A DNA stretch of 64,000 bases, taken from the NCBI GenBank assembly GCA_947503305.1, contig CANNDF010000001.1:62001-126000 (forward strand). The letters are read 5' to 3'. Positions 3,396 through 12,601 of this stretch are shown here, in pieces (position 1 is the stretch's first letter; each line of letters starts with the position of its first letter). This DNA is from an uncultured Dokdonia sp. GTDB lineage: Bacteria; Bacteroidota; Bacteroidia; Flavobacteriales; Flavobacteriaceae. The notes below the pieces were generated by a model that worked only from the letters and a program-made list of their open reading frames with translations, had not been told where the DNA came from and did not search any database. A program made the position numbers and the translations under genes.

Positions 3396-3533
3396 CTACT
3401 CTTTAGAAGGTTTTTTGTCTTCTATATCCGTAACATCTTCGGAAGGAATATCTTTCCCTTTTAGATACTCAGGTAGCTCCATTCCTGCCATATTAAACAT
3501 TTCCTGAAGTGGTGGTACTGTTTTATCTTTCAA
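3396..3533 (-). CDS. Small ORF downstream of slipin, unknown
   Basis: 45 codons from a TTG at 3533 (KDKTVPPLQEMFNMAGMELP at its N-terminal side), ending in an acidic and lysine-rich tail. The same frame is open to an upstream TAA and would read STIILLLKDKT. There is no ATG before residue 12. The composition looks coding, and it sits between the slipin stop and a good terminator. It could be a small protein or the C-terminal remnant of a decayed gene, perhaps a second SPFH-type protein. I do not recognise it. Confidence 0.35.
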   Translation of the reverse strand: MKDKTVPPLQEMFNMAGMELPEYLKGKDIPSEDVTDIEDKKPSKE

Positions 3534-3636
3534 AAGTAAAATTATTGTAGATTGTTATCCTGAACATTAAATATTACTTATGCATATTTTAATTAATAAA
3601 GCAAAAACGCATCAATGTAAATCAAAATACCCTCTA

Positions 3637-4737
3637 TTACTTATTTACAGAAAAAATCTCCTTTAATTGTTTTACCATATTACCATTTCCAGAGACAGTA
3701 ATCTCACCTATCTTATCAGCAATATTTTCAACATATTCCATCTCTTTTAATTTGAAGAGCATTTCATTTTCTTCCATAAGTTTTGCCGTATTTAATAAGC
3801 TTCGTGTAGAAGCGGTCTCTTCACGACGGGTAATAATATTAGCTTGAGCCTTTTTCTGTGCTACTAAAACTTGATTCATAATGTCCTTCATTTCTCCCGT
3901 TAAAATCACATCACGGATACCGCAGTTTAAAACAGTGACTCCTAATTTTGAAGCCTGAACTTTAATATTATCATATACAGCTTCTGCGATACTTTCTTTA
4001 CTATCTAAAAGCTCATCTAAAGTATATCCACCTATATAAGCCCGAAGGGCCAGCTGCATAGCAATATAGAGTTGCTTTTCATAATCCTTGTTTTCTAAAA
4101 GCGCCTTTTCAATATCAACCACTTTATACTGAGTATAAAAATTGATACGAATCGCTGCTTTATCCTTAGTTAACAATTCCTGTCCTGCAATCTCTAATTG
4201 TAATTGACGCATATCGACCTTTGCAAATTTGATAGATGCTTCATTACGCCAGAAACGATAAGTCCCACTTTCTAATGTTTTTACGTACACATCATCAACA
4301 AGCATAACAGCTCTTTCATAAGCAGCTACTTCAAATAATCGAATATATTGACTTAACCCTGGTAAGCTGAACCAGGACTTATCAATTTTCTCTGTGATTT
4401 CAATTTTGTTTCTATCAACAGTAACAAATTTATAATCTATTAGATTCTTCCAGTATAAGTATCTGCCAGAAGTTAATACTTGTTTTAAATTTTTGTTTTC
4501 TAAAACCAATACCAATTCATTATCCTTAACCTCCACAACATGTAACATAGCTTCCAATCTATCATCCTGAAAAAGAATTTCTGTTGCAATAGGGGCTACA
4601 AAAGGCTTTGTAAGATCATACTTCATAATCCTTTTATTAAATCCTAACCAATAATTTCCTCGTGTAATCACTTTTTGGTAATCACCTCTTTTAAAAACTA
4701 AACCTACATTTCCTGTATTAATTCTAACTCGTTTCAT
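3637..4737 (-). CDS. Slipin family protein (SPFH/Band-7 domain)
   Basis: 366 aa. Residues 1-120 carry a repeated short motif (GNVGLVFKRGDYQKVITRGNYW, then LVLENKNLKQVLTSGRYLYW), followed by an SPFH/Band-7 domain at about 130-300 (VMLVDDVYVKTLESGTYRFW, IRDVILTGEMKDIMNQVLVA) and a charged helical tail. I see no transmembrane helix. Band-7 proteins form large oligomeric scaffolds. In bacterial RNA-repair loci they occur with RtcB and have been proposed as scaffolds for repair with a tRNA-like RNA. Here it is the last gene of the tRNA/YkuK minus-strand block, with a 425-bp structured upstream region. Confidence 0.85.
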   Translation of the reverse strand: MKRVRINTGNVGLVFKRGDYQKVITRGNYWLGFNKRIMKYDLTKPFVAPIATEILFQDDRLEAMLHVVEVKDNELVLVLENKNLKQVLTSGRYLYWKNLIDYKFVTVDRNKIEITEKIDKSWFSLPGLSQYIRLFEVAAYERAVMLVDDVYVKTLESGTYRFWRNEASIKFAKVDMRQLQLEIAGQELLTKDKAAIRINFYTQYKVVDIEKALLENKDYEKQLYIAMQLALRAYIGGYTLDELLDSKESIAEAVYDNIKVQASKLGVTVLNCGIRDVILTGEMKDIMNQVLVAQKKAQANIITRREETASTRSLLNTAKLMEENEMLFKLKEMEYVENIADKIGEITVSGNGNMVKQLKEIFSVNK

Positions 4738-5162
4738 TTTTTCATTTTATGTTCGTCAAAGACAAACTAGTTAAACAATAATTGGATGCAATGCCTTTAG
4801 GATTGCCGACTTTGAATACTTGCTACGAGTATTGCTTTCATTCAAAGTGTTTATTTTTATTCTATCTATTTCTTTTTAAAAACAGTGCATACACACCATC
4901 TGTCCGTTACGGAAATAAGATGTTTGATTAAATGCCTAGATAAGTTTTGAATAATGGATCAGATTAATGTCAGTATAATAAATCTATTCTGAGACTAAAG
5001 TGAGTGACTACTAAAAAGTCATCCATTTACTTAATTAAACATTCAAATTTCAAAGTACTTTCAGATTGTTGTATATTCTAATTTGAATATTCAACAGATC
5101 TGCATACACTATTTTTGTCAATTTTTCAGCGTGACAGGCTGGGACTTAACTCAAGTCAAGAG
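4738..5162 (-). other. Long structured leader between tRNA-like RNA and slipin
   Basis: 425 bp with no convincing ORF. It contains a nested hairpin: ACTTTGAAT (4809-4817) pairs with ATTCAAAGT (4840-4848), with AATACT/AGTATT inside (4815-4820, 4828-4833). At about 5100-5125 the minus strand reads CAGC-CTGTCAC-GCTG, an anticodon-arm-like hairpin with an Asp-type loop, preceded by GACTT-GAGTT-AAGTC. This could be the 5' UTR of slipin, a separate small RNA, or tRNA debris. Confidence 0.4.
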
Positions 5163-5203
5163 ATCGGACTCGAACCGATACGCCTTACGGCTTTCCAATT
5201 AAC
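5156..5203 (-). ncRNA. 3' extension of the tRNA-like RNA: GNRA hairpin plus orphan T-arm
   Basis: On the minus strand, past the CAU anticodon arm, the sequence forms a short hairpin GCC-GTAA-GGC (5182-5191) and then a canonical T-arm, ATCGG-TTCGAGT-CCGAT (5163-5179). The next bases, CTCTTGA, do not complement the GGCCTTA 5' acceptor strand. TAAGGC inside the hairpin could instead pair with GCCTTA at the 5' end. This is either a tRNA-like molecule with a long variable region or the fused 3' half of another tRNA. Confidence 0.5.
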
Positions 5204-5282
5204 CTACATTATGAGTGTAGTGCTCTAACCAACTGAGCTATAAGGCCTAAATTATGGTGGCCTTAACAGGATTCGAACCTGT
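5204..5282 (-). tRNA. Apparently circularly permuted tRNA-Met/Ile2 (CAU)
   Basis: In transcription order: T-arm ACAGG-TTCGAAT-CCTGT (5282-5266), 3' acceptor strand TAAGGCC, then A-CCA (to 5255), a 7-nt spacer TAATTTA (5254-5248), then 5' acceptor GGCCTTA (5247-5241), D-arm GCTC-AGTTGGTTA-GAGC, and anticodon arm CTACA-CTCATAA-TGTAG (to 5204). The acceptor strands match in all 7 pairs. Joining the outer ends gives a complete cloverleaf with anticodon CAU. This is the only unit in the array with an encoded CCA. Alternative: two neighbouring identical tRNA-Met genes reduced by deletion to abutting halves. Confidence 0.6.
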
Positions 5283-5360
5283 GCTTAATCTGTTGTTCTA
5301 ACCAAACTGAACTACAATCCTTTACGGGATAGGTGGGAATCGAACCCACGACCTACAGAG
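5283..5360 (-). tRNA. Split or chimeric tRNA unit (halves in reversed order)
   Basis: A 3' half (TCTGT-AGGTC-GTGGG-TTCGATT-CCCAC-CTATCCC-G, 5359-5325) comes before a 5' half (AGGATTG-TA-GTTC-D-loop-GAAC-A-ACAGA, 5321-5289), separated by 3 nt. ACAGA and TCTGT match as the two strands of an anticodon stem; five of the seven acceptor pairs match. The loop cannot be read unambiguously. G73, A1 and a nearby CTCCAAA loop hint at Trp(CCA), but this is weak. It could equally be pseudogene debris. Confidence 0.4.
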
Positions 5361-11409: not shown

Positions 11410-11423
11410 TTCTTGTTTTTTAA

Positions 11424-11452
11424 GCTCCGTCAGCTTCCTTATCTGACGGAGC
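11424..11452 (-). promoter_or_regulatory. Perfect hairpin in the rtcB 5' UTR
   Basis: GCTCCGTCAG (11424-11433) pairs with CTGACGGAGC (11443-11452), loop 9 nt. It ends 15 bp before the rtcB ATG. It is GC-rich within an AT-rich region and could control translation, stability or attenuation. Confidence 0.75.
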
Positions 11453-11508
11453 GCTACATTAAAGTCTTTCAATAGACTTCTTTATGATTCCAATACAAAT
11501 ATTTGCCT

Positions 11509-11535
11509 CATGTACGCAATCATTTTGCGTACATG
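11509..11535. promoter_or_regulatory. Operator-like inverted repeat, copy B (rtcB/WYL divergent promoter)
   Basis: CATGTACGCAA-TCATT-TTGCGTACATG is a perfect 11-bp inverted repeat centred between the divergent rtcB and WYL genes. Its central 19 nt are identical to the repeat at 5992-6010. This is a good candidate for the WYL protein's binding site. Confidence 0.85.
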
Positions 11536-11569
11536 TATTTATTCCTTACTTTTCATTAAAATTTAACCT

Positions 11570-12601
11570 GTGGCTTTAAATAAAAATGCATTAATACGCT
11601 ATAAAACGATTGATAAGTGTCTGCAAAATAATTACAGACAATGGACATTGGATGATCTAATAGAAGCTTGCTCTGATACATTATATGAATATGAAGGCAG
11701 AGAGGTAAATGTAAGCAAACGTACTGTTCAGTTAGATATTCAAATGATGCGCAGTGACAAACTAGGATATAATGCTCCTATTGTCGTCTACGACAAGAAG
11801 TTCTACAAATATGAGGATGAAGATTATTCTATAACTGATATTCCCCTTAATGAAAATGACATGAATGTCCTTTCGGAAACAGTGGAAATGTTAAAACAGT
11901 TTAAAGACTTCTCACTTTTTTCGGAATTAGGTGGTATTATTCAGCGTTTGGAAGATAAAGTATATACCGAAAAAACACATCAATCTGCCATAATTCATTT
12001 AGACAAGAACGAAAAACTTAAAGGGTTACAACATTTGGATATATTATATCAGGCTATTCTGAAAAAGACGGTACTAAGTATCAAATACCAATCATTTAAG
12101 GCTAGAGAAGCTTCTGAGATTATTTTTCATCCATTTATTCTAAAAGAGTTTAATAATCGTTGGTTTTTGATTGGCAGACCAGGCATAGAAGCAAAAAAGC
12201 CAATCGTTACTTTTGCTTTAGATAGAATTGTTGCTATCGATTATGATACTACAATTACATATAAAAATGACAACTTCAACGGTGATGAATATTATAAAGA
12301 TGTTGTTGGTGTTACTGTTTCAAATACCCGTGCAGAACGAGTCAAGTTTTGGGTAGATCAGAAAAATGCTCCCTATGTAATAACTAAGCCTTTCCATAAT
12401 TCGCAAAGGGTCATTAAAAAAACTGATGATGGAGTTGTCTTCAATATTTTTGTACAACTCAATTTTGAATTAGAGCGTATGATATTAGGGTTTGGCGATG
12501 CTATAGAGGTTATTAAACCTAAACGCCTTAGAAATCGCATCAAACAGAAGTTGGAAAAGGCAACAGGATTTTATAAAGAGTTAGAAATAAAAAAGGATTA
12601 A
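11570..12601 (+). CDS. WYL-domain transcriptional regulator
   Basis: 343 aa from a GTG start; family members begin similarly (NKNALIRYKTIDKCL). An N-terminal winged helix (about 1-90, SKRTVQLDIQMMRSDK) is followed by a linker, a WYL domain around 150-235 (IKYQSFKAREASEIIFHPFI, FNNRWFLIGR) and a WCX-type C-terminal extension (250-335). WYL proteins sense nucleic acid or nucleotide ligands and often control RNA-repair or defence genes. Divergent orientation from rtcB across the inverted repeat suggests autoregulation and control of rtcB and, through the second repeat, of the tRNA/slipin side. Confidence 0.93.
   Translation: MALNKNALIRYKTIDKCLQNNYRQWTLDDLIEACSDTLYEYEGREVNVSKRTVQLDIQMMRSDKLGYNAPIVVYDKKFYKYEDEDYSITDIPLNENDMNVLSETVEMLKQFKDFSLFSELGGIIQRLEDKVYTEKTHQSAIIHLDKNEKLKGLQHLDILYQAILKKTVLSIKYQSFKAREASEIIFHPFILKEFNNRWFLIGRPGIEAKKPIVTFALDRIVAIDYDTTITYKNDNFNGDEYYKDVVGVTVSNTRAERVKFWVDQKNAPYVITKPFHNSQRVIKKTDDGVVFNIFVQLNFELERMILGFGDAIEVIKPKRLRNRIKQKLEKATGFYKELEIKKD

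Follow-up and report, generated by a model that had tools for sequence, protein, structure and literature searches.

A Locus in Dokdonia That Probably Combines tRNA Repair with Attenuator-Controlled tRNA Replacement

Introduction

Why would a bacterium with a complete set of transfer RNA (tRNA) genes keep a redundant array of them, and how might it sense that particular tRNAs have been destroyed? Both questions are raised by a locus of an uncultured Dokdonia sp. (Flavobacteriaceae; GenBank assembly GCA_947503305.1, contig CANNDF010000001.1), located in a stretch of 64,000 nucleotides (nt) that is called the window here and from whose first letter all coordinates are counted. From position 11472 downward on the minus strand, the locus comprises rtcB, two open reading frames (ORFs) of 248 and 202 amino acids (aa), 18 tRNA genes, ykuK, a 147-aa ORF, tRNA-like units and a slipin gene, and a WYL regulator gene is divergent from rtcB and the remaining locus. 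An initial annotation had listed these parts as one block, and all of them are present. Taken together with the comparisons described below, their arrangement suggests that the locus is probably a tRNA-damage response with two branches, one for repair under the WYL protein and one for replacement under the control of attenuators. With somewhat less assurance, we lean towards reading two tandem leaders ahead of the tRNA genes as a pan-amino-acid sensor, by which the loss of any of many tRNAs would release an alien set deviating at base 37, with the WYL-linked ligase and a tRNA-mimic RNA and slipin carrying out repair.

A Redundant tRNA Array Alien to the Chromosome

The spare tRNAs lie in one cluster at the centre of the locus:

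6555..8072, minus strand: array of 18 tRNAs, none for Ala, Gly, Met, Thr or Trp (ARAGORN)

The earlier count of 18 complete tRNAs proved exact, as ARAGORN finds 18 in the window and places all of them within the array. The idea of a spare set also held when the array was compared with the chromosomal tRNAs. Outside the window, 40 tRNA genes with 32 anticodons cover all 18 anticodons of the array. The array tRNAs are 58–70% identical (mean 62.9%) to chromosomal tRNAs with the same anticodon, and on average share 88.5% identity with their closest counterpart among other arrays. Base 73 equals that of the host isoacceptor in 17 of 18 array tRNAs (permuted mean 8.5), the exception being Arg-TCT.

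Related loci were collected by scanning GTDB with a slipin alignment, which gave at least 523 relatives. The best 80 loci were retained; these are the closest slipins and no random sample, and 63 of them have full flanks. Together with 20 picked loci (the window and 19 others), which were selected mainly for carrying tRNAs or slipin, they form a set of 100 oriented loci. An array, defined as at least three tRNAs, is present in 52 of these, and 50 of the arrays have sufficient upstream sequence. Over the 52 arrays, the commonest tRNAs are those for Arg (38), Gln (35), Asp (35), Leu (34), Glu (31), Tyr (31) and Cys (30), and the rarest are those for Val (6), Met (5), Gly (5), Thr (3) and Ala (1).

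The anticodon loop could be read in 459 of 467 array tRNAs. Base 37 is U in 35/37 Asp and 25/32 Glu tRNAs, A in Gln (34/35), Pro (24/24), Leu-TAG (25/34), Arg-ACG (22/27) and His (16/26), and G in Phe (19/29) and Leu-TAA (8/16). On the chromosome (that of the organism itself and, in part, of genome G308), the corresponding base is A in Asp, Glu and Phe and G in Gln, Pro, Leu-TAG, Arg-ACG and His. Array tRNAs for Lys, Asn, Ser, Cys, Trp, Tyr-GTA and Arg-TCT retain the chromosomal base, A37. The set of array tRNAs is redundant, alien to the chromosome and systematically changed at base 37. Phage tRNAs have been described as escaping anticodon nucleases through changes in the anticodon loop (PMC10264068), and both the alien sequence and the base-37 changes seen here are compatible with nuclease evasion.

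In the window array, tRNA-Asp and tRNA-Glu (7322–7394 and 7244–7316, minus strand) have U37, as in other arrays. Between tRNA-Leu(TAA) and tRNA-Arg(TCG) lies a 67-nt insert (6863–6929, minus strand) that has an inverted repeat, ATGTCTG/CAGACAT, by eye and matches no recognised tRNA.

Putative Leader Peptides Ahead of the Array

What controls such an array? The sequence ahead of the first tRNA contains two units, each consisting of a short ORF and an intrinsic terminator, with a conserved element between them:

8587..8706, minus strand: leader ORF 1, 39 aa with 19 different amino acids (coordinates recomputed)
8521..8550, minus strand: intrinsic terminator 1; the end of leader ORF 1 is complementary to its 5′ arm (p 0.045)
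8343..8471, minus strand: conserved element GAGACAG ... CCGT-loop-ACGGACAGG ... TTGATTRTCAA between the leader units (pattern search)
8153..8278, minus strand: leader ORF 2, 41 aa with all 20 amino acids
8096..8127, minus strand: intrinsic terminator 2, some 30 nt upstream of the first tRNA; the end of leader ORF 2 is complementary to its 5′ arm (p 0.045)

At least one leader unit, with its stop 42–71 nt ahead of the T run, precedes 39 of 50 arrays, giving 70 units in total under a spacing rule that was fixed only after array units had been viewed. Random windows from the same loci contain a unit in 10/337 cases with this spacing and in 27/337 under a looser finding rule. Units with at least 18 different amino acids precede 31/50 arrays as against 2/337 random windows. 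Before the chromosomal tRNA genes of the host a unit was found in 2/22 cases, one being the C-terminus of EF-Tu.

The composition of the leaders is unusual. Selected blind to composition and reduced to a non-redundant set of 29 (<50% identity, mean 42 aa), the leader peptides contain 18.21 different amino acids, compared to 15.68 in equal protein segments (standard deviation 0.28, 2000 draws) and 15.19 in other mechanical ORFs of 30–48 aa (n = 1629). When the leader DNA is read in frames +1, +2 and reverse, the values are 15.97, 15.52 and 15.59 (frame 0 vs. +1/+2, p = 4.5e-6; frames +1/+2 contain stops), and codon-position-wise shuffles of the leaders give 16.90 (standard deviation 0.24). The excess lies mostly upstream of the last 14 codons (z 8.9 vs. 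2.9). By the share of peptides in which a residue occurs, leaders vs. segments, Cys (86% vs. 26%), His (93% vs. 51%), Gln (100% vs. 76%) and Arg (100% vs. 75%) are enriched, and Ala (69% vs. 90%) and Val (79% vs. 90%) are avoided. The gain per amino acid follows the number of arrays that carry the cognate tRNA (Spearman 0.71, p = 4e-4, computed on rounded values and pooled over arrays, not per locus), and raw leader composition likewise follows array tRNA counts (Spearman 0.50, p = 0.025).

Pairing between the terminator's 5′ arm and the last part of the ORF is predicted, with a mean z of −1.71 relative to shuffles. The ORF segment able to pair lies mostly 8–41 nt 5′ of the stop, and the two antiterminator strands co-vary between loci. 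Among the features of a leader-peptide attenuator, a short ORF, a terminator, mutually exclusive pairing and matched codons are found in these putative attenuators.

Could the array nevertheless be an ordinary codon-supply cluster, preceded by chance ORFs and a terminator that acts as an insulator? Bacterial tRNA clusters are common, but all 18 anticodons are already on the chromosome, Ala, Thr, Gly, Val and Met tRNAs are systematically lacking from the arrays, and the leader units far exceed those of random windows, with an amino-acid coverage that is frame-specific. We regard this explanation as very improbable indeed.

The strict pattern of the conserved element occurs before 28/52 arrays, with 8 matches elsewhere in 1.88 megabases. 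A search of Rfam gave no credible match to it and RNAalifold no structure; a CCGT/ACGG hairpin is visible by eye. In seven of eight arrays read upstream, a TPR-like gene is located 5′ of the array in place of a leader unit. Such a gene precedes arrays or tRNAs that lack a unit in L157, L159, L169, L170, L173, L174, L183 and L143 (8212–8740); the likeness to TPR comes from Pfam on the relative in L143 only. When related leaders are compared, 7 indels have a length divisible by 3 and 22 do not; these were left unused as aligner-dependent, and they give no support for a conserved peptide.

A Palindrome Probably Linked to the WYL Regulator

Which genes would the WYL protein control? Two identical palindromes point to an answer:

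11570..12601, plus strand: WYL/WCX transcription regulator (Pfam WYL E 7e-11, WCX E 3e-13)
11514..11530: palindrome ACGCAATCATTTTGCGT, presumed WYL operator between the WYL gene and rtcB, recurring in other loci
10027..11472, minus strand: RtcB ligase, divergent type (PF01139 E 2e-35; motifs aligned to 4dwr)
5993..6009: second identical copy of the palindrome, 5′ of the unit of 147-aa ORF, non-coding RNA and slipin (pattern search)

With up to one mismatch tolerated, the pattern RCGCAA-N6-TGCGY occurs in the window only at 5993–6009 and 11514–11530, as one identical 17-mer, and an equal number of matches was reached in 3/100 shuffles. The genome holds it at three places, two of them in this locus, and holds the reversed control pattern at none. 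The third place, C5:160142, lies within a gene like that of a site-specific recombinase (by eye) near a hibernation-factor gene (L240) and is read as a chance match. Across the 80 slipin loci (1,495,371 bases), 83 palindrome sites were found vs. 2 control sites. The palindrome is located 0.3–2.2 kilobases 5′ of slipin in 41 of the 74 loci with enough upstream sequence, and 23–192 nt 5′ of an rtcB match in 18/80. This distribution suggests that the WYL protein binds the 17-base-pair palindrome.

The genome-wide pattern search found no palindrome upstream of the tRNA array. The initial annotation had the WYL protein switching on the tRNA set as well. As the presumed WYL sites precede rtcB and the 147-aa/non-coding RNA/slipin unit, and two putative leader attenuators precede the array, this part of the proposal is not supported as worded, and the WYL protein as a direct switch of the array was rejected.

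The true start of RtcB is probably inside the annotated ORF. Aligned to the solved RtcB 4dwr, its GNHF, HxGSRG and HGAGR stretches match and D-x-x-C matches weakly; these stretches we take to be those with catalytic roles. The genome carries a second RtcB besides the copy in the locus, and it gave no PF01137 match (RtcA) and no PF05731 match (TROVE, Rsr). Two distinct RtcB types share one locus in L162, L163, L164, L193 and L201.

A Permuted tRNA-Like RNA Upstream of Slipin

The second palindrome precedes a region in which tRNA parts appear in an altered order, followed by the slipin gene:

5275..5492, minus strand: structured RNA, made up of a 5′ domain and the first of the permuted tRNA units (alignment A2)
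5130..5274, minus strand: second permuted unit, with the acceptor hairpin TAAGGCC/GGCCTTA (5241–5265) and an extra T-arm (sequence, Rfam scan)
3637..4737, minus strand: slipin (SPFH/Band_7) of a distinct family (Band_7 E 8e-30)

The rearranged tRNA units described earlier are real, with Rfam tRNA matches of 39.3 and 31.6 bits at about 5130–5490 on the minus strand. Each has the order T-arm, sealed acceptor hairpin and D-arm, which is that of a tRNA permuted at the anticodon, and the 5′ domain holds the hairpin GTG-TTTCNGTATAG-CAC. The topology of the units is presumably that of YrlA. Matches to YrlA (RF02553) reach 35.6 and 32.2 bits, below the gathering score of 69, and its TROVE partner gene was not found in the genome; membership in that family was rejected.

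An alignment of 24 sequences predicts 49 pairs, of which 31 show compensatory change on both sides. In 97.3% of the alignment cells the bases pair, vs. 83.0% in shuffles, for a structure derived from that very alignment; sliding the partners by 1–3 columns leaves 38–43% of cells paired and 12–16 pairs with two-sided change. A second set of 10 sequences has compensatory change in 19/31 pairs. A permuted unit was found in 92 of 98 kilobases upstream of slipin vs. 0 of 189 control pieces. The RNA motif pattern matched 78/100 loci, part of them by chance; in the window a single base kept it from matching. In many loci a further hairpin of the CATCACTCTTAAAAAGATG type follows 3′ of the permuted units by eye (e.g., L153, 9020–9045), and the RNA is thus probably longer than the part that was modelled.

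These units bear on whether the array tRNAs and permuted units together are decoys, absorbing nucleases or feeding RtcB and not translating. The permuted units are unable to decode, both array Leu tRNAs have short variable loops (by eye) and the U37 of Asp and Glu is odd. Against this, the array consists of 18 complete cloverleaf genes with anticodons, base 73 is kept in all but one of them, and array content matches leader content. A decoy function for the whole set therefore appears quite improbable.

Recurrence in Bacteroidota

Is the locus an isolated arrangement? A sample of 395 genomes from the phylum was searched for the slipin family and YkuK. Some match to slipin is present in 247/395, and a full-length close relative (≥46% identity, E ≤ 2e-103) in 20/395; the slipin of G304 is a 79% fragment, and the other matches listed are far lower, mostly ≤29%. 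Among those 20 genomes, the fetched flank contains at least one upstream ARAGORN tRNA in 15, RtcB in 9 and a WYL homologue in 6. The nearest named slipins belong to Flavobacteriaceae (82% identity), and slipin relatives also occur in regions of E. coli and Burkholderia that carried no annotation.

Of the slipin loci with full flanks, 43/63 have RtcB and 25/63 WYL, all 25 also with RtcB. Upstream tRNAs number at least one in 48/63 and at least three in 28/63, and RtcB or a tRNA is present in 60/63. Recurrence of the gene set in other Bacteroidota had been proposed, and its absence named as the main ground for refutation; the set does recur. Slipin, RtcB, WYL and tRNA array form a recurrent Bacteroidota module, and the association of slipin with tRNAs, RtcB and WYL exceeds chance.

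The YkuK gene, proposed as part of the same system, is present at this locus and optional elsewhere:

6030..6545, minus strand: YkuK-type RNase H-like protein (PF04308 E 5e-34), single copy in the genome

The listed ORF (212 aa) extends back through tRNA-Phe; translation likely starts at an in-frame ATG (position 6545) that lies about 10 nt past tRNA-Phe, giving 171 aa. YkuK occurs in 6/63 slipin loci and in 41/395 phylum genomes. Besides this genome, 11 genomes of the same order carry it. Their YkuK is close in 9, each of which has an array (3–19 tRNAs), and distant in 2, neither of which has one. Among 23 fetched class-level YkuK loci, an array was found at G391:C5 only. YkuK was consequently dropped as a core part.

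The same survey speaks to the notion that the array is a travelling antidefence cluster of the phage or plasmid type that settled by chance beside RtcB loci. The array tRNAs stand apart from the chromosomal ones and near those of other arrays, YkuK-bearing arrays are found without RtcB nearby, and tRNA arrays on M. avium plasmids are termed putative antidefence (PMC12803027). However, a search of viral contigs gave no member of the slipin family, phage records gave one weak partial slipin match only, and slipin, mimic RNA and tRNAs occur together in many species. Such an origin seems distinctly unlikely for the array, and a phage origin of the slipin itself was rejected on the same viral and phage searches. 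Plasmid slipin relatives reach at most 39% identity among the matches listed.

The remaining ORFs of the locus gave no match in domain searches against Pfam, NCBIfam and PADLOC at E 0.01:

9341..10087, minus strand: 248-aa ORF of the rtcB operon
8758..9366, minus strand: 202-aa ORF, with a homologue in 13/63 full-flank slipin loci
5509..5952, minus strand: 147-aa ORF, with no tblastn match across the 80 slipin loci

By eye, the genes flanking the locus resemble those of biotin synthesis.

Relation to Known Systems

The closest known system, which provides an experimental precedent, is the trn/rtcB/slipin regulon of Anabaena PCC 7120. There, trn is a redundant and normally silent operon of 26 tRNAs, which is repressed by TrcR together with rtcB (all3526) and slipin (alr0740) as one stress regulon (PMC10272220). 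As in Anabaena, a redundant array stands beside a complete housekeeping set. Here rtcB and the slipin unit are preceded by identical palindromes and may likewise belong to one regulon. In contrast, the Anabaena genes are scattered, with a ribbon-helix-helix repressor at the promoter, whereas the present system occupies a single locus with a WYL gene and a palindrome of its own; the tRNA-mimic RNA and the putative leader-peptide attenuators before the array are further features of this locus.

Anabaena also lends weight to a broader reading, in which the leaders sense any translation slowdown, as in starvation or under antibiotics, and the array is a general reserve for translational stress. 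Antibiotics that stop elongation induce both trn and rtcB, and for trn those named are chloramphenicol, spectinomycin and streptomycin (PMC10272220; Sp is printed as streptomycin and read here as spectinomycin). A leader left incompletely translated would likewise free the end of its ORF. The RtcB link and the base-37 changes speak against a general reserve, as does the match between leader amino acids and the supplied tRNAs, which a general sensor would not need, and we consider this reading unlikely.

Burroughs and Aravind (2016) reportedly predicted RtcB systems with SPFH/Band-7 proteins and a novel tRNA-like RNA. The repair branch described here is probably that system: RtcB and SPFH share one neighbourhood in the majority of loci noted above, and a tRNA-like RNA lies by the SPFH gene. 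That prediction is not known to include a large tRNA array, a WYL palindrome or leader peptides. The RtcR-controlled rtcBA operon differs in that the gene for the RtcA cyclase was not found in this genome. YrlA, encoded in rsr-yrlBA-rtcBA operons (PMC7790460), is similar in having a tRNA-like module with a sealed acceptor beside RtcB; the RNA here has another 5′ domain, scores 35.6 of 69 bits and comes from a genome in which neither a TROVE nor an RtcA gene was found.

The redundant tRNAs carried by phages and plasmids have altered anticodon loops or arms and are proposed to bypass tRNA-cutting defences (PMC10264068, PMC12803027); relative to these, the present array sits on the chromosome, where it shares a locus with a ligase and has an apparent sensor of its own.

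The leader attenuators of trp and his use a short translated leader with one or two repeated codons and alternative antiterminator and terminator structures. The units described here share the short leader ORF and the mutual exclusion of antiterminator and terminator, but their leaders span 15–20 amino acids and precede tRNAs. Within the open-access library searched, titles and abstracts showed no leader that spans every amino acid or attenuates an operon of tRNAs, nor was a one-locus form with palindrome, base-37 pattern and near-all-amino-acid leader found. Given the Anabaena regulon and the reported RtcB/Band-7/RNA prediction, the repair branch is of a kind already known, and so is the concept of a tRNA array for stress.

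Discussion

On the preferred reading, a damage response with repair and replacement branches, the WYL protein would act on the 17-base-pair palindrome to control rtcB and its partner genes and, through the second copy, the tRNA-mimic RNA and slipin. RtcB would reseal tRNAs broken in the anticodon loop, and the mimic RNA, permuted at the anticodon and with sealed acceptors, would probably scaffold or tune resealing together with slipin. The two leader transcripts would each encode a short peptide of nearly all amino acids. With plentiful tRNAs, a ribosome would complete the leader and mask the end of the ORF, the terminator would fold and the array would stay off. A cut or empty tRNA would stall the ribosome early and free the 3′ end of the ORF, which could then pair with the 5′ arm of the terminator and block its formation, so that the spare, base-37-altered tRNAs and YkuK would be produced. 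Sequence and comparison show the parts, their recurrence, the palindrome pattern, the RNA structure, the leader statistics, the complementarity and the alien tRNAs. From these we infer antitermination through stalling, charging and nuclease resistance of the array tRNAs, and the roles of slipin, mimic RNA and YkuK.

Several observations weigh against this reading. RtcB and WYL were found in only part of the slipin loci (43/63 and 25/63), several arrays have neither within about 10 kilobases, and 11/50 arrays lack a leader unit. Just 52% of the 29 non-redundant units reach p ≤ 0.05 for antiterminator pairing, and some units have no such pairing (e.g., one each in L222, L231 and L150). The base-37 pattern is incomplete, with 10/26 His and 10/29 Phe deviating. 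Leader substitutions are nearly flat by codon position (219/256/283), meaning that the peptide itself is not conserved and its translation putative; a lack of peptide conservation would suit a sensor. Leader-bearing arrays occur without RtcB or WYL nearby and the converse occurs too, and this incomplete co-occurrence indicates that the repair and replacement branches are separable.

The locus bears on how cells sense the destruction of particular tRNAs and on why bacteria keep redundant tRNA arrays. If the proposed response is correct, a tRNA-replacement circuit that measures its own product would represent a new kind of attenuator, and the leaders would be ready-made sensors of tRNA loss. The system would then show how simultaneous repair and replacement of tRNAs lets bacteria withstand tRNA-cutting toxins and abortive defence.

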